Assembly: GCF_005405185.1 (NCBI RefSeq)
Contig: NZ_BJDO01000022.1
Span: 1-39,749 of the forward strand
Length of the DNA stretch: 39,749 bases
Direction: 5' to 3'
From: Secundilactobacillus hailunensis
Lineage (GTDB): Bacteria > Bacillota > Bacilli > Lactobacillales > Lactobacillaceae
Below, in pieces: positions 6,095 to 21,256 of this stretch. Position 1 is the stretch's first letter; each line of letters opens with the position of its first letter. The notes beneath the pieces are model-generated. The model was not told where the DNA came from. It made no database searches and was given only the letters and a program-made list of their open reading frames with translations. A program made the translations under genes and the position numbers.

Positions 6095-6516
6095 TCAACG
6101 TCTTGGACGTCCACCGTTGTATCGGTCTAATTGTGAGTCAACATATTGAACTATTGTTTCTTTTGAAGCATTACCAAAGGTACTCATAAAGAAGCTAGGA
6201 GACCATAAATGTCTGCCCCAGAGTGATTTTTGGGTTTGCGGAAACTGAATAAACCACTATTTTGCTGAACCACCTTTAAAAGCTTTAACGATTGAAGATG
6301 GCGCTGACTTAGGCGGAAAGCTGATCATCATTTGAACCTGATCAGGCATTACCTCCATGTGAGATATTTCAACTGAGTTTCTTTCAGCAATCTTTTTCAC
6401 GATAGTTTTCATAGCATCAACTTGTTTTTCAGTTGTAAATATCTTTTTCGATACTTGGTAGTCCAAACCAGTTGAAAGTTAAAATCAGACACATTAGGAT
6501 GTTTGTGCTTAATCAT
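6095..6516 (-). pseudogene. tnpA: IS200-type Y1 transposase TnpA, inactivated
   Basis: HUH single-strand transposase of the IS element, now dead. Reading from ATG 6516 gives the typical LVWTTKYRK start. A missing A in an A-run just after it shifts the frame into the stretch that continues to a TAG at 6259-6257. Beyond the TAG the same frame gives KSLWGRHLWSPSFF and then ETIVQYVDSQ, with the expected catalytic Tyr. The His-x-His metal site is replaced by Gln-Val-Gln (DQVQMMISF where relatives have DHVHMLISF). One frameshift, one nonsense codon and loss of both HUH histidines mean the element cannot move by its own TnpA. Repairing the frame gives about 140 residues, the normal family length. 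Confidence 0.88.
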
Positions 6517-15865: not shown

Positions 15866-16178
15866 GTTGTTAAATACGAAGCAAGCGACAAGATGAGTAA
15901 GCTTTGCATGGTCTTCAGAGAGTTACCGTTTGGTGAAAGGTAACGGCTGTGTCCAGCTGAATATGGTCTTGATAATCGCTCTGTTGCTGAACCGTTGGGC
16001 TAGGCAGTGGCGGGAACTCCCGTTATAGAGTTAGGGTATGCACTGATAGCAGTAAGTACTGAACCGCTGTTAGTCAGTACCCGATGAGGAATATTTCCGC
16101 GAGGGGTATTCGAACTAAGGTGGTAGCACGATTAAATCGTCCTTTTATTTAGAGATAAATAAAGGGGCGATTTTTTGT
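15866..16178 (+). promoter_or_regulatory. T-box leader, probably methionine-specific
   Basis: Full T-box leader. Stem I has an AGTA bulge, the distal loop sequence CAGAGAG and the GGTGAAA bulge. The specifier loop reads GAATATGG, giving an ATG (Met) codon at about 15963-15965. The T-box sequence AAGGTGGTAGCACG lies at 16117-16130. The terminator stem AATCG(T)CCTTTTATTTA...TAAATAAAGGGGCGATT ends in a T run at 16176. Uncharged tRNA-Met should favour the antiterminator and so expression of metN-metI-metQ-luxS. The specifier assignment fits the downstream methionine transporter. Confidence 0.92.
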
Positions 16179-16185
16179 TGCCAAG

Positions 16186-16293
16186 GTGTGGAAGCAGGCG
16201 GTTAGAGACTGGAGTGTAACGAAGCCTGGGCAAAAATCCCGGGTCTGGATTTATGACCGGGATTCGTTACGCGCAAGTCTCTGCCTGCTGAAA
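16186..16293 (+). repeat. Covarying hairpin repeat, copy A (in the metN leader)
   Basis: About 108 bp that folds into one long hairpin: AGCAGGC/GCCTGCT at the base, AGAGACT/AGTCTCT next, then GTAACGAA/TTCGTTAC, with an apical ATCC...GGAT. It lies between the T-box terminator and metN, so it is part of the metN mRNA leader. Sister copies are at 20257, 20382 (degenerate) and 21071. Confidence 0.85.
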
Positions 16294-16331
16294 CCCGATT
16301 AAACTATGTAAAATTAAGGGAGAGCAGCAAT

Positions 16332-17411
16332 ATGACTGAGACAGCAGCAAACGCAATTGAATTAAAAAACACATCAGTCCACTTTGATAACGGCGACCAA
16401 CAGATCGATGCTGTGAAGAACGTTGATCTAACGGTTCCGCGGGGTGATATCTACGGCATCATCGGTTATTCCGGAGCTGGGAAAAGTACCTTGGTGCGCG
16501 TCATCAACCTATTGCAGAAGCCAACTGCTGGGACGGTGATCGTCAACAATCAGAAAATTCAGCAACTAAAACCAGTTGAACTACGGCAAGCCCGCAAAAA
16601 GGTCAGCATGATTTTTCAACATTTTAATTTAATGAAGTCCCGCACGGTACAAGGTAACGTGGAATACCCACTGTTAGGAACCAAGATCAGCAAGGCTGAC
16701 CGGCACGCCAAGGCAGAGAAGTTACTAAAATTAGTTGGCTTGAGTGAATACGCGGGTACGTATCCCGGCCAGTTATCCGGTGGGCAGAAACAGCGGGTGG
16801 CCATCGCCCGAGCGTTAGCCAGTGACCCTGAAATCTTAATCTCAGATGAAGCCACCAGTGCGTTGGACCCGAAGACCACGAAATCAATTCTAGAATTACT
16901 GAAACAGCTGAATCGTGATTTGAATTTGACAATCGTTTTGATCACCCATGAAATGCAAGTAATCAAAAGTATTTGTCATAACGTAGCGGTCATGGATGCC
17001 GGTGAAATTATTGAACGTGGATCGGTCGCCAAGGTCTTCACGGAACCGCAGCAAAAGTTGACTAACGATTTTGTTGAAACTTCGACTAACGTGAAAGAAG
17101 CCATTGAGCGCATTACCAGCACGATCAAAATCAGTGAGTTTAAAGCTGATCAGGAACTGATGTACTTCAACTTTATTGGTAATTCTACCAAACAAAGCGT
17201 TGTTTCCGAGTTATCACAAAAGTACGGTGTGGACGTGAACATCCTGTTTGCTAACATCGATCAGATCGATGGCGAGAACGTGGGTTATATGATCGCCATC
17301 ATTACCGGTGATTTGGCTGGCTTTAATGGCGCGGTTCAACAAATGAAAACGGAAGGCGTTAAAACTAGAATTTTGACGGATGAAACACTTAAAGGGGGTG
17401 ATGGTCAATGA
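16332..17411 (+). CDS. metN: Methionine ABC transporter ATP-binding protein MetN
   Basis: ATPase of the D/L-methionine importer, 359 aa. Walker A GYSGAGKST near residue 44, signature LSGGQKQR near 148, Walker B ILISDEATSALDP. A C-terminal NIL (ACT-like) domain occupies about residues 275-350; in MetN this domain binds methionine and inhibits transport. AAGGGAG is upstream of the ATG. The gene is first in the T-box operon and overlaps metI by 4 bp (ATGA). Confidence 0.96.
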   Translation: MTETAANAIELKNTSVHFDNGDQQIDAVKNVDLTVPRGDIYGIIGYSGAGKSTLVRVINLLQKPTAGTVIVNNQKIQQLKPVELRQARKKVSMIFQHFNLMKSRTVQGNVEYPLLGTKISKADRHAKAEKLLKLVGLSEYAGTYPGQLSGGQKQRVAIARALASDPEILISDEATSALDPKTTKSILELLKQLNRDLNLTIVLITHEMQVIKSICHNVAVMDAGEIIERGSVAKVFTEPQQKLTNDFVETSTNVKEAIERITSTIKISEFKADQELMYFNFIGNSTKQSVVSELSQKYGVDVNILFANIDQIDGENVGYMIAIITGDLAGFNGAVQQMKTEGVKTRILTDETLKGGDGQ

Positions 17412-18079
17412 ATGCGATTATGCCAAACGTCATGGCAATGAAGGGCGAGTTTATTCAGGCCACCTGGGAAACAATCTACATGACGCTGATGTCAGCCATC
17501 GTTTCAGCAGTTTTGGGATTGCTGGTCGGCGTGCTGTTAGTGGTTACGCAGCCAGGCGGAATTTTGGAAGACAAGCTGACGTATTCAGTTGTCGATAAGC
17601 TGGTTAACCTGTTGCGGTCCATTCCCTTCATCATCTTGCTGGCGGTGATTTCACCACTGACCAAGTTTCTAGTGGGGACCACCGTTGGGACGACTGCTTC
17701 GCTGGTACCGTTGATTTTCGGCATCTTCCCGTTCTACGCTCGGCAAGTTCAAAATGCGTTGCTGGACGTGGATCATGGAGTGATCGAGGCTGCTGAATCG
17801 ATGGGTTCCAGTCCCATGGCAATCATCTTTCGAATTTATCTGCGGGAGGGTCTCGCCGATATCATCCGAGTTTCCATCGTGACCATTATTAGTCTGATCG
17901 GTTTAACGACCATGGCTGGTGCCATTGGTTCCGGTGGCCTTGGGGATGTCGCTATCAACATTGGCTACGCTCGTTTCGAGAATGACATTACCTTCATGGC
18001 AATGATCATCATTTTAATCTTAGTGTTTGCGGTTCAGCTGATTGGGGACTGGATCGTTAGAAGAGTCGAACATAATTAA
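17408..18079 (+). CDS. metI: Methionine ABC transporter permease MetI
   Basis: Five-helix permease of the importer, 223 aa. It carries the coupling EAA loop (VIEAAESMGSSPMAIIFRIYLREG). It starts at ATG 17408 within the metN stop, so translation is coupled; AAAGGGGGTG lies 6-10 bp before it. metQ follows after 14 bp with its own AGGAGTG. Confidence 0.95.
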   Translation: MNAIMPNVMAMKGEFIQATWETIYMTLMSAIVSAVLGLLVGVLLVVTQPGGILEDKLTYSVVDKLVNLLRSIPFIILLAVISPLTKFLVGTTVGTTASLVPLIFGIFPFYARQVQNALLDVDHGVIEAAESMGSSPMAIIFRIYLREGLADIIRVSIVTIISLIGLTTMAGAIGSGGLGDVAINIGYARFENDITFMAMIIILILVFAVQLIGDWIVRRVEHN

Positions 18080-18093
18080 AGGAGTGATATAAA

Positions 18094-18954
18094 ATGAAAA
18101 AAAGCGCGTATTGGTTAATTGGTATTGTAGTCGTCGTTGTTTTAGCAGCATTTGGGATTCACGATATTTCTAATACCCAGGCGGCTAATAAGAGTAAGTC
18201 CAGTTCAATCTTGATTGGGTCGCAGGGGTCTGACATTGATATTTGGCAGCACATCGCCAAAACCAACGATGCTAAGAAATTGGGACTGAAGATCAAGGTG
18301 AAAAATATTGCTGATGGGGTGCAACTGAATAAGGCCACTGCGGATGGTGACGTGGATGTGAACGCCTTCCAGTCTTGGTCATACCTAGAAACCTATAATC
18401 AGCAGAATAAGTCTAACAAGTTGGCCGCATTAGGAACAACTTACTTGGAGCCCATGGGCCTGTATTCTAAGAAATACAAGAACGTTAAGGATATTCCGGC
18501 AGGGTCAACGATTGCCATTGCTAATAACCCATCGCAAGCTGCCCGTGGTTTAGTACTCCTGCAAAAGGCTGGTTTGATCAAATTGGATAAGAACTTCGGT
18601 TACGTTGGCACAGTTAAGGATATCAAGTCCAACCCGAAGAACTTCAAGTTCAAGCAGATCGATGACACCACTGGTCCGCGGGTGATCAACGATGTGGACG
18701 CGGTGCTGATTTCCAACACGGTGGCTTTGGAAGGCCATCTGCACGTGCTGACGGATTCCATTTATCATGAAAAAGTTGACCAAAGCACAAAGGACAACAT
18801 TAACATTCTGGCCACTTCAGAAAAGAACAAGAATAATCCTAACTACAAGAAGTTAGTGAAGCTCTATCACAAGAAAGATATCCAAAAGTACATCAAGGAT
18901 AAGTACTATGGCACCAAGATCGAAGTTAACAAACCACTTAGTTATTTGAAGTAA
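18094..18954 (+). CDS. metQ: Methionine-binding protein MetQ-like, without a lipobox
   Basis: Extracytoplasmic methionine-binding component, 286 aa, NlpA/MetQ family. Residues 8-24 form one hydrophobic segment. The body shows the family pattern including DVDVNAFQSWSYLE and GSTIAIANNPSQAARGLVLLQKAGLI. The usual lipoprotein Cys is absent: the stretch reads VLAAFGIHD and the protein has no cysteine at all. It must therefore be held by an uncleaved N-terminal helix or be released. AAAGGAGTG precedes the ATG. It sits between metI and luxS. Confidence 0.92.
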   Translation: MKKSAYWLIGIVVVVVLAAFGIHDISNTQAANKSKSSSILIGSQGSDIDIWQHIAKTNDAKKLGLKIKVKNIADGVQLNKATADGDVDVNAFQSWSYLETYNQQNKSNKLAALGTTYLEPMGLYSKKYKNVKDIPAGSTIAIANNPSQAARGLVLLQKAGLIKLDKNFGYVGTVKDIKSNPKNFKFKQIDDTTGPRVINDVDAVLISNTVALEGHLHVLTDSIYHEKVDQSTKDNINILATSEKNKNNPNYKKLVKLYHKKDIQKYIKDKYYGTKIEVNKPLSYLK

Positions 18955-18986
18955 CAGCTATTTAAAAATCAAAAGGAGAGCATATT

Positions 18987-19460
18987 ATGGCTAAAGTTGA
19001 AAGTTTTACATTGGATCACACAAAGGTTAAAGCACCATACGTTCGGTTGATTACTGAGGAACACGGGGAAAAGGGCGACATTATTAGTAACTACGATTTG
19101 CGGTTAGTACAGCCTAATACAAACGCAATCCCAACAGCTGGTCTGCACACGATTGAACATCTGTTGGCGGGTTTGTTGCGTGACCGGCTTGATGGCGTGA
19201 TCGACTGTTCACCATTTGGCTGCCGGACCGGGTTTCATTTGATTACTTGGGGTCAGCATTCTACTACCGAAGTTGCCAAAGCTTTGAAGAGTTCACTAGA
19301 AGAAATTGCCGACAAGATCGAATGGAAAGACGTTCAGGGGACTGATAAGTACAGTTGCGGCAACTACCGCGACCATTCACTCTTCTCAGCAAAGCAGTGG
19401 TCATGCGATATTGTTGATGCAGGTATCAGTGACGATCCATTCGAACGGCACACGATTTAG
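18987..19460 (+). CDS. luxS: S-ribosylhomocysteine lyase LuxS
   Basis: Splits S-ribosylhomocysteine into homocysteine and DPD, the precursor of autoinducer-2, in the activated methyl cycle. At 157 aa it is full length. The zinc ligands are in HTIEHL (residues about 54-58) and a Cys in the [10 protein letters not shown] stretch (about 124); the catalytic Cys is in [11 protein letters not shown] (about 84). AAAAGGAGAG precedes the ATG. Being in the Met T-box operon next to the methionine importer, its main job here is probably homocysteine recycling. Confidence 0.96.
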
Positions 19461-19480
19461 ACTAGTCAGGAGGTCATAGC

Positions 19481-20251
19481 ATGGCAAAATTAGCAATTGT
19501 AACGGGTTCAGGACAAGGTATTGGTGAAGGAATCGCGCACCGTCTCGCAAAAGAGGGTTACGCCATCGCTGTGGCCGACATTAACGACACTACCGCAGCT
19601 AAGGTCGCTCAAGATCTACAGAGCGAAGGCTATAGTGCCAAGGCTTATCATGTGGATGTGGCGCACCGTGACGAAGTATTTGCATTGGTCGATGCAGCGG
19701 TCAAAGATTTAGGGGAGTTGGCCGTTTATGTGAACAATGCCGGGGTAGCGTTCATTGAAAGCTTTATCGACTCGGATCCAGCAGACGTTGAACGCCTATT
19801 AGACGTGAATTTGAAGGGAACTTACTGGGGCATTCAAGCTGCTGGTAAGAAATTTAAAGAACAGGGTCACGGCGGCCGAATCGTTAACGCGGCTTCTTTG
19901 GCGGGCTATGAGGCTTCGGCATTGCAGAGTGCCTATTCAGCTTCTAAGTTTGGTATTCGTGGTTTGACGCAGTCGGCGGCTAAGGAATTTGCCAAGGATA
20001 AAATTACTGTGAATGCTTATAACCCAGGAATCGTGCGCACTAAAATGCGTGATGCGATTGATGAAAAAACGGCGGCAATTAAGCATAAGAGTGTGGCAGA
20101 GCAACGAGCAGACTGTTTAACTGAGATTGCGATTGGTCGTGAAGCCACGCCAGCAGATGTTGCTGCGGTGGTCGCTTGGTTTGTGAGCCCAGATGCCGGT
20201 TATGTGACTGGACAGAGTTTACAGGTTGATGGGGGAATGAGATTTCATTAA
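19481..20251 (+). CDS. Acetoin(diacetyl) reductase / 2,3-butanediol dehydrogenase, SDR family
   Basis: Classical short-chain dehydrogenase, 256 aa. Cofactor motif TGSGQGIGEG (residues 8-17), NNAGV at about 86-90, catalytic Ser in NAASLAGY, Tyr-x3-Lys in YSASKFG (about 152-158), C-terminal YVTGQSLQVDGGMRFH. The overall sequence fits the acetoin reductase/meso-butanediol dehydrogenase subgroup, which uses NADH to reduce diacetyl and acetoin. AGGAGG precedes the ATG, 20 bp after luxS, so it is probably the last gene of the Met T-box operon. Why a diacetyl reductase is tied to methionine supply is unclear. Confidence 0.88.
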   Translation: MAKLAIVTGSGQGIGEGIAHRLAKEGYAIAVADINDTTAAKVAQDLQSEGYSAKAYHVDVAHRDEVFALVDAAVKDLGELAVYVNNAGVAFIESFIDSDPADVERLLDVNLKGTYWGIQAAGKKFKEQGHGGRIVNAASLAGYEASALQSAYSASKFGIRGLTQSAAKEFAKDKITVNAYNPGIVRTKMRDAIDEKTAAIKHKSVAEQRADCLTEIAIGREATPADVAAVVAWFVSPDAGYVTGQSLQVDGGMRFH

Positions 20252-20256
20252 AGAGA

Positions 20257-20367
20257 GTGCGGAACAAGGCGGTTAGAGAGCGACGCGTAACGCCACCTTG
20301 CCATAAATCCCGGGTTTGGATTTGTGGTGAGGTGGTGTTACGCACAGCTCTCTGCCTTGTGTAGCAC
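20257..20367 (+). repeat. Covarying hairpin repeat, copy B
   Basis: About 111 bp directly after the acetoin reductase stop. Outer GTGC/GCAC, then ACAAGGC/GCCTTGT, AGAGAGC/GCTCTCT, GTAAC..CCACCT/AGGTGG..GTTAC and an apical AAATCC/GGATTT stem. The ends and apex are nearly the same as in copy D (21071), while the middle stem differs and still pairs. Confidence 0.85.
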
Positions 20368-20381
20368 GTTTAGGCTAGGTA

Positions 20382-20458
20382 AACTCAACAAGCCTATAAA
20401 TCCCGAACTTGGATTTGTGGTAAAGTCTCTTACATGGAGGTCTCTGTCTTGTTGAACA
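20382..20458 (+). repeat. Covarying hairpin repeat, copy C (degenerate)
   Basis: Keeps the outer CAACAAG/CTTGTTG pair, the apical AAATCC/GGATTT unit and the AACACG end, but lacks the left GCGGTTAGAGAGC arm. It is immediately downstream of copy B and looks like a decayed tandem copy. Confidence 0.65.
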
Positions 20459-20487
20459 CGTTTCCGCTAGATAACATCAACGAGTAT

Positions 20488-20545
20488 AAAAAAACGCTTT
20501 ACACCAACACTGCAAAAACAGCATTGATGCAAAGCGTTTTTTATG
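20488..20545 (+). terminator. Terminator downstream of the luxS-SDR operon
   Basis: Arms AAAAACGCTTT and AAAGCGTTTTT with an inner pair CACTGC/GCATTG-like helix and a final T run. Probably ends the Met T-box transcript after copies B and C. Confidence 0.75.
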
Positions 20546-20620
20546 TAAATGAGTTTAGCAGTCTGACTGCAACAGGGGTAAAATAGAGGTAAATACATAG
20601 CAGGAAAGAAGTAACAGATC

Positions 20621-21070
20621 ATGACAGAGCATTTGCAAGCGGCTAAACCGTCACAACAGATCTACCAAAGACGAGAGCCAGATGCACCAACGCACTATCA
20701 ATATATGATTAGCGACATGACCAAAGTTAAACACCCGTTGGTCGAGCCAGCCCCACAGCTAGAAATGGCCCATCGTTCTAAGGCTAAGAAAAAGCATTCT
20801 TGGCTGACCACTATTGGTACGGGGATTGTTGTGCTAAAAGTTGGTGTCTGGGTATGGCCATACGTAGAGGGCTGGGTGATCGATATTGGCCTGATACTAT
20901 TGATGATATTGGGATTATTTTTAATGTACGCATTTTGTGTTTGGCTCGATAATAAAACGGGTGGTAGTGGCTACTCCGGTCCGTATGATGATGACAGCTA
21001 CGATGCCGGCTGGTTTGATTCGTGGGCGTTTCATAATGATGGTAATGATCATAATGATAACTTGTACTGA
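20621..21070 (+). CDS. Hypothetical membrane protein
   Basis: 149 aa of unknown function. Residues 1-60 are polar, with a basic RSKAKKKHSW patch. Two closely spaced hydrophobic helices follow (about 63-80 and 84-106), then an acidic, Asp/Tyr/Asn-rich tail ending in DGNDHNDNLY. Ribosome site AGGAAAG is about 12 bp before the ATG. It lies between the operon terminator and repeat copy D, alone. The His/Asp-rich tail could bind a metal, but that is speculation. Confidence 0.6.
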   Translation: MTEHLQAAKPSQQIYQRREPDAPTHYQYMISDMTKVKHPLVEPAPQLEMAHRSKAKKKHSWLTTIGTGIVVLKVGVWVWPYVEGWVIDIGLILLMILGLFLMYAFCVWLDNKTGGSGYSGPYDDDSYDAGWFDSWAFHNDGNDHNDNLY

Positions 21071-21180
21071 GTGCGAAACAAGGCGGTTAGAGAGCGACGC
21101 ATAACGGGTATCACCATAAATTCTGGGCTTGAATTCGTGGTGATACCCGTTATACAAAGCTCTCTGCCTTGTTGAACACG
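21071..21180 (+). repeat. Covarying hairpin repeat, copy D
   Basis: The best-formed copy: CAAGGC/GCCTTG, AGAGAGC/GCTCTCT, a perfect 15-bp middle stem ATAACGGGTATCACC/GGTGATACCCGTTAT and an apical AATTC/GAATT. It starts 1 bp after the stop of the preceding gene. Confidence 0.88.
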
Positions 21181-21220
21181 TTAAGGCTAGTTAAGGCTAT
21201 ATAAAAGAAATGAGCAAATT

Positions 21221-21256
21221 AAAAGGCGCTGATCCAATCAGATCAGCGCCTTTTCC
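21221..21256. terminator. Terminator at the 3' end of recA
   Basis: A 14-bp perfect stem AAAAGGCGCTGATC/GATCAGCGCCTTTT with a 6-base loop, 15 bp beyond the recA stop. Its symmetry could end transcripts from either side. Confidence 0.88.

Follow-up and report, generated by a model that had tools for sequence, protein, structure and literature searches.

Hairpin elements at stop codons: a dispersed, structurally conserved family in Secundilactobacillus hailunensis and other Lactobacillaceae

REPs located near stop codons reportedly slow ribosomes and call tmRNA. The end of GTAG REP palindromes often supplies the TAG stop of a flanking open reading frame (ORF), REP stems vary by alternative complementary residues, and G·T pairs within them have been interpreted as pointing to a function at the RNA level (PMC3733652). 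In the case of ERIC, it has been proposed that a cleavage site is laid open by ribosomes, and the orientation of the repeat makes a difference (PMC2229807). Pneumococcus, a member of Lactobacillales, carries BOX, RUP and SPRITE, small interspersed structured repeats; SPRITE is enriched near gene 3' ends, and in one instance a BOX is combined with two T-boxes into a composite (PMC3049150). Here we analyse hairpin repeats in a 39,749-nucleotide stretch of Secundilactobacillus hailunensis (contig NZ_BJDO01000022.1; the whole stretch is referred to as the window). The observation, originally made from the letters of the window alone, was confirmed and proved larger than first described; genome-wide recurrence and covariation of the family place it far beyond chance. 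The repeats keep their structure in place, one of their strands matters, they are frequently anchored to stop codons and they exchange their inner stems. We lean slightly towards regarding them as a dispersed family of structured RNA elements of ~110-130 nt, often situated exactly where a coding sequence finishes, with their 5' end on the stop codon, which would be read as part of the mRNA. The preserved pairing suggests that this type of RNA element has not been described before, and it is best read as a new ERIC/REP-like family of 3'-end elements.

The element, a hairpin of ~40 bp, starts with an A[AG][GA]GTG end, followed by a 7-bp outer stem, a 4-nt bulge (GGTT type) and a second stem of AGAGAGC/GCTCTCT type. 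Inside the second stem, a 3x3 internal loop leads to the inner stem, which spans 26 columns and often has an A·A mismatch close to its apex; the terminal loop is of CGRRYTT type and the 3' tail reads CNCGWTTMGGCTAKRTAA. The middle ~11 bp of the inner stem are free in sequence yet nearly always paired. To align copies, a regular expression was used that gave 28 stretches in the first 30 loci; one spurious row was dropped, and the remaining 27 copies served for training of covariance model R1 (130 positions, 40 base pairs). BLASTN retrieved 40 matches in the own genome and R1 110, both strands of palindromes being counted. Distinct places number at least 64 in the window genome (G000) and at least 65 in G007, its nearest relative in the genome set compared. 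These are lower bounds, because the first pass scored 150 of 508 and of 527 candidates; weak places were excluded (C8:663 and C60:7802 in G000; C18:4978, C2:220845, C8:65724, C5:81221 and C15:33081 in G007). The A[AG][GA]GTG end is present in 110 of the 129 copies, preceded by T in 46% and by C in 33% of the 110. End logos were built from 110 (5') and 92 (3') of the 129 copies, picked by similar patterns, with 19 and then a further 18 excluded. A second in-frame stop (TAG or TAA in the bulge) occurs in all 27 aligned copies; it is not kept in other genera and was set aside as incidental.

Pairing of the stems was evaluated first in the 27 aligned copies, where 95.9% of 1073 cells are paired (shuffled mean 76.5) and 207 cells are double-changed, compared with 54.5 after shuffling. 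Double changes affect 29 of the 40 pairs, the covariation score is 0.573 versus 0.188, and pairing falls to 31-45% when the partner is slid by 1-3 columns. Since covariation of paralogs could come from copying, orthologous copies were compared. Those at the jag gene end (7 species) are paired in 99.3% of cells, with 23 double-changed cells versus 6.9 shuffled; their locus-specific apex persists even as the stem underneath is altered. Of five covariation measures applied to the jag set, one (how many pair types occur) did not exceed the shuffles (132 of 500). For sufB orthologs from 12 species, 96.8% of cells are paired and 107 are double-changed (28.4 shuffled). Between G000 and G007, 46 copies could be paired by their flanking DNA, 29 of which were kept for the count of pair changes (equal length, at most 30% difference). 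They display 79 double changes from one Watson-Crick (WC) pair to another and 13 other double changes; single changes comprise 75 between WC and G·T, 11 between WC and A·C and 25 between WC and other combinations. This shows that the hairpin shape is preserved: paired stems change their letters and stay paired. The proposal that the hairpin is under selection and not merely copied was thus supported, as orthologs at fixed gene ends (jag, sufB) swap pairs and remain paired.

Non-canonical pairs are distributed unequally between strands. On the element's + strand, the 27 copies contain 966 Watson-Crick cells, whereas G·T accounts for 63, A·C for 4 and other combinations for 40; 7 cells have gaps. 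The 36-nt arms of 127 of the 129 copies give 3762 Watson-Crick, 346 G·T and 69 A·C pairs along with 375 other cells (internal loop included) and 40 gaps. Sorted by gene context, the ratio of G·T to A·C is 137:35 at stops, 59:5 in copies that are co-oriented with the left gene but far from it, and 57:16 where the left gene is divergent and the right one co-oriented. The large excess of G·T over A·C on the element's own strand implies that one strand is selected. As the bias follows this strand, RNA or strand-specific single-stranded DNA is a likelier target than a cruciform or a replication-linked DNA process.

Position relative to genes was determined using genes called by a simple script that scores codon usage and had been trained on ten genes of the window. 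The left gene is co-oriented with the element in 39 of 64 copies in G000 and 40 of 65 in G007, and in 28 and 29 of these, respectively, the element starts between -8 and +11 nt of the stop (57 of 129 overall). The two genomes are not independent; after merging of ortholog pairs, the 57 at-stop copies represent 37 distinct sites. In the commonest register (15 copies in G000, 18 in G007) the stop consists of a T and the first two bases of the element. Altogether, 33 of the 57 at-stop copies complete the stop codon, 23 as T|AG and 10 as T|AA. In other genera and families, the at-stop position was found at 12 of 30 loci, six of the 30 being near-identical copies of one element in another setting. 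A terminator-like site lies within 220 nt 3' of 21 of the 57 at-stop copies, compared with 4 in the upstream control and 2 after shuffling; the corresponding figures are 7 of 45 (7 upstream) for copies with a divergent left gene and 7 of 22 (4 upstream) for co-oriented far copies. Identity of the element itself with a transcription terminator was dismissed by eye, as it has no T-run. A second LuxS-like gene (recognised by eye; compare window positions 18987-19460) is present in G000 near the end of contig C36 (near 26567, L182), with an element 5 nt after its stop.

Divergence in the inner stems runs at roughly double the rate seen elsewhere in the element. G000-G007 orthologs differ at 22% of sites in the inner arms, at 9-10% in the rest of the element and at 7% in the upstream 300 nt. 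The downstream flank differs by 17% over the 46 pairs, and relative to it the inner-arm excess is not significant (Wilcoxon p 0.07); for the 31 pairs with flank divergence of at most 0.25, the values are 9.4% for the downstream flank versus 19% for the inner arms (p 0.0003). Changes range from the swap of a single base pair (for example C32:16501) to replacement of the whole inner stem behind 28 identical first nucleotides of the element (G000 C10:24959 and C11:52949), and some large inner-stem distances are register shifts (for example C10:25338). Identical inner stems were found at unrelated loci (G000 C11:52949 and G007 C12:85850; G007 C8:65365 and C2:311922), as were chimeric hairpins with arms from two copies (G007 C16:42941 and C2:66522). 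It follows that inner stems are passed between copies in addition to being altered step by step; for most of the replaced stems no donor was found. The original proposal is qualified in that the variety of stem sequences is due in part to such exchange.

In the window, the element and its neighbouring features are arranged as follows.

15879-16147, + strand: T-box leader 5' of metN (Rfam RF00230, 92.2 bits, E 1.9e-19), the context of copy 1 and outside the element.
16178-16307, + strand: copy 1, within the metN leader, 3' of the T-box and 5' of metN (R1 127.0 bits, E 2.3e-29; training copy).
20249-20378, + strand: copy 2, directly 3' of the SDR gene stop (TAA, 20249-20251) (R1 135.6 bits, E 1.3e-31; training copy).
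20382-20474, + strand: remnant of a second, tandem copy, consisting of the apex and the 3' half, with the 5' arm missing (alignment with G007; BLAST match 20396-20481).
20489-20542, + strand: terminator-like inverted repeat with a T-run, 3' of copy 2 and the remnant (I3; 24-nt arms, 83% complementary).
21063-21190, + strand: copy 3, whose 5' end overlaps the stop (TGA, 21068-21070) of ORF 20621-21070 (R1 112.4 bits, E 1.5e-25; training copy).
21221-21254, strand not assigned: palindrome resembling a terminator, separating copy 3 from the convergent recA (I21; 14-nt arms, 100% complementary).

The first conserved base (A) of copy 1 is 16183. The pairs on which the original prediction was founded are all in place: AGCAGGC/GCCTGCT at 16186 as opposed to ACAAGGC/GCCTTGT at 20257 and 21071, AGAGACT/AGTCTCT as opposed to AGAGAGC/GCTCTCT in the second stem, and ATCC/GGAT as opposed to ATTC/GAAT at the apex. 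The three middle stems are unrelated and all paired, and the copies fold far better than shuffled sequences. On the + strand, copies 1, 2 and 3 reach -56.9 (z -6.5), -75.8 (z -10.6) and -59.2 kcal/mol (z -9.6), respectively, with none of 200 dinucleotide shuffles as good in any case. The remnant reaches -21.3 kcal/mol (1 of 200 shuffles as good). It was described as a decayed copy at 20382-20458; it is indeed a member of the family, more exactly the apex and 3' half of a tandem copy, and G007 has at this site a single intact copy whose 3' half aligns with the remnant. The copy 3 site in G007 has lost the inner hairpin by deletion. Placement of one copy in the metN leader, and of those at 20257 and 21071 after or overlapping stops (those ending the SDR gene and a 149-aa ORF), was also correct. 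The metN T-box itself scores 92.2 against a gathering score of 93 and is overlooked at default Rfam settings.

Occurrence of the family genome-wide and across Lactobacillaceae, for which a covariance-model search had been advised, was verified. R1 matches with E of at most 1e-6 were obtained in 139 of 301 Lactobacillaceae genomes, representing 24 of 40 genera. At E of at most 0.001, 21 of 41 genomes (the own genome included) were matched, among them all 15 of the genus. Other families of the order yielded matches in 2 of 16 genomes (G025 and G036), which makes frequent false hits unlikely; the G036 copy has an AAGGTG end and lies 5 nt 3' of a stop. Pattern scan of named genomes gave 17 stretches, all from Secundilactobacillus (Lactobacillaceae), namely from the species silagincola, yichangensis, pentosiphilus, mixtipabuli, silagei and similis. 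At six orthologous gene ends (SDR, purB, asnA, ychF, sufB, jag) the element is present in 53 of 82 cases, a biased estimate because these ends were chosen for its presence in G000. The SDR gene end carries it in 9 of 11 genomes, with mostly different inner stems (G001 and G013 share one). The remaining counts are 5/13 for purB, 8/13 plus one truncated copy for asnA, 12/15 plus one shortened copy for ychF, 12/15 loci for sufB (G011 has two loci) and 7/15 for jag; the purB count does not include G005 and G010, nor the asnA count G008 and G014, and the ychF copy of G007 is below the energy cut-off but visible in sequence. Stems are longer still in G258, from another genus (L101, L117), where G258_C43_108425 forms a nearly perfect long hairpin at -97 kcal/mol. 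A near-identical 130-nt copy with near-identical flanks was encountered in six genomes with genus codes g5, g6, g38 and g44 (L097-L100, L102, L103), and this similarity suggests that it may travel inside a horizontally moved segment.

If the elements are parts of mRNA, each may act on the mRNA of the gene whose end it occupies. As estimated from alignment columns for the commonest register, the distance from the first stop-codon base to the start of the outer stem would be ~11 nt, with a weak GUG/CAC closing pair closer to the stop. At such a distance a terminating ribosome would stand against the hairpin, so that ribosome and fold might compete. The fold could then set 3'-end cutting or degradation and translation of the last codons, as proposed for ERIC and REP.

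Several observations weigh against this reading. As many as 72 of the 129 copies are not at a co-oriented stop, and 22 (14 distinct sites; for example G000 C11:52949) are antisense to both neighbours with the same bias (G·T 73, A·C 9), for which mobility or unseen transcription would have to be the explanation. Gene calls rest on the codon-usage script and not on annotation. Promoter signal 5' of the copies, measured by a crude consensus score, is not above shuffles. Upstream genes of the 28 at-stop copies in G000 are diverse by eye and have no evident common function; the idea of a regulon was dropped for this diversity (judged by eye, family search having covered window genes only). Finally, 29 of the 82 orthologous ends lack the element, which is thus not essential there; for 3 of the 29, the genome has a shortened or second locus.

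The strand bias of antisense copies, equal to that of the others, would suit a non-autonomous mobile element of REP or MITE (miniature inverted-repeat transposable element) type. Its transposase would recognise the top-strand hairpin as single-stranded DNA or RNA, pairing and strand bias would be demands of mobility, and insertion would prefer stops (T|A). High copy number, tandem copies and strand specificity fit such an origin, as do the copy shared with its flanks by six genomes of four genus codes and the TAG stops that REP ends also supply (PMC3733652). We nevertheless regard this explanation as rather unlikely. Y1 transposase (PF01797) occurs in just 7 of 15 genus genomes, with several matches broken, whereas the element occurs in 15 of 15; owing to this patchiness Y1 transposase was rejected as the mover, and no active mover was found in the PF01797 search, other transposase families not having been searched. 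Nine sister-genome sites without a listed partner contained three truncated hairpins with the outer stem kept and two full copies (in one the stem is almost unchanged, in the other it differs), while in two the element was absent without clean ends and two were not comparable. No clean empty site or target duplication was seen in these nine comparisons, and SDR-end orthologs provided no clean empty site either. A known MITE had been the alternative raised at the outset; the end logos display no terminal inverted repeats, the 3' tail CNCGWTTMGGCTAKRTAA having no counterpart at the 5' A[AG][GA]GTG end. In addition, orthologous copies evolve compensatorily in place (jag, sufB). Search of phages and plasmids by blastn with one 161-base window stretch gave no match. 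Neighbouring copies less than 400 bp apart are arranged head to tail in 7 of 9 cases in G000 (61 copies) and in 12 of 13 in G007 (65 copies). Separately, window positions 6131-6448 (- strand) match the Y1 (IS200-type) transposase family with an internal stop codon and represent a decayed insertion-sequence gene.

Pairing might also be kept mutationally, one arm templating the other in a DNA hairpin (palindrome correction) along with conversion between copies and no functional selection. Clustered double changes, whole stems replaced behind 28 unchanged nucleotides, identical stems at unrelated loci, chimeric hairpins and deletions inside the hairpin at several sites are what such a process could leave behind. 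It is nonetheless improbable, since a DNA mechanism should be strand-equal or follow replication, whereas the G·T/A·C bias follows the element's strand in all contexts tested. Moreover, chimeric, badly paired hairpins remain uncorrected, and the jag apex stays locus-specific in 7 species despite the changing stem below. That many copies are independent small RNAs which chance to be intergenic is most improbable, for although antisense and far copies keep bias and fold, no promoter-like signal above shuffles precedes the copies and their 5' end is anchored to stop codons.

Returning to the mRNA element, we tentatively propose a more specific role for its inner stem. Being free in sequence, swapped among dozens of copies, rewritten at about double the pace of the remaining element and yet kept paired, next to outer stems and unpaired motifs that are conserved, it might be a replaceable cassette of a stop-anchored RNA class across Lactobacillaceae, that is, a double-stranded tag of the gene end read by the terminating ribosome or by a ribonuclease. 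The element is abundant in both genomes in which it was counted and widespread in a single family of food bacteria, yet Rfam 15 does not contain it. Since the stem at a given gene end differs from species to species, the orthologous copies constitute natural replicates for testing hairpin function at the stop codon; the same replicates allow the speed of compensatory change and of stem exchange to be measured.

The original statement that the repeats match nothing already described stood up to comparison with Rfam 15 and with the literature searched (open-access only), in which no such lactobacillus element appeared. Rfam 15 gave no match in the window at the gathering cut-off; at E of at most 5, 16 matches arose in five loci, none at gathering score, the T-box being just below it and the rest far below, and none concerned the element. 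One of the side matches, Streptococcus RNA Srn266 at L113:1255-1368 beside an element (31.2 bits, gathering 63), is probably due to chance. An integron attC-like site was dismissed by eye, no matching motifs being known.

Among known families, BOX, RUP and SPRITE differ in having terminal inverted repeats, accompanied in BOX and RUP by target duplications, and in being modular or terminator-like, and are set apart by description; they are almost absent outside pneumococcus and S. mitis (PMC3049150). GTAG REPs resemble the element in that their end supplies the stop of a flanking ORF, as in 33 of our 57 at-stop copies. Nevertheless, GTAG/CGTC REPs measure 20-40 bp, bear the GTAG tag and are often accompanied by RAYT genes, whereas the element is ~110-130 nt long, lacks a GTAG/CGTC tag and a conserved Y1 transposase, and has near neighbours mostly head to tail. 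Similar in appearance are the enterobacterial 127-bp repeats (ERIC, IRU, RU-1), alike in length, intergenic position and long stem-loop; they belong to another phylum, and the free-sequence inner stem and stop-codon anchoring of the lactobacillus element set it apart from them, by description only. By the features tested, the element is neither REP nor MITE; by analogy, it may work like ERIC or REP in function.

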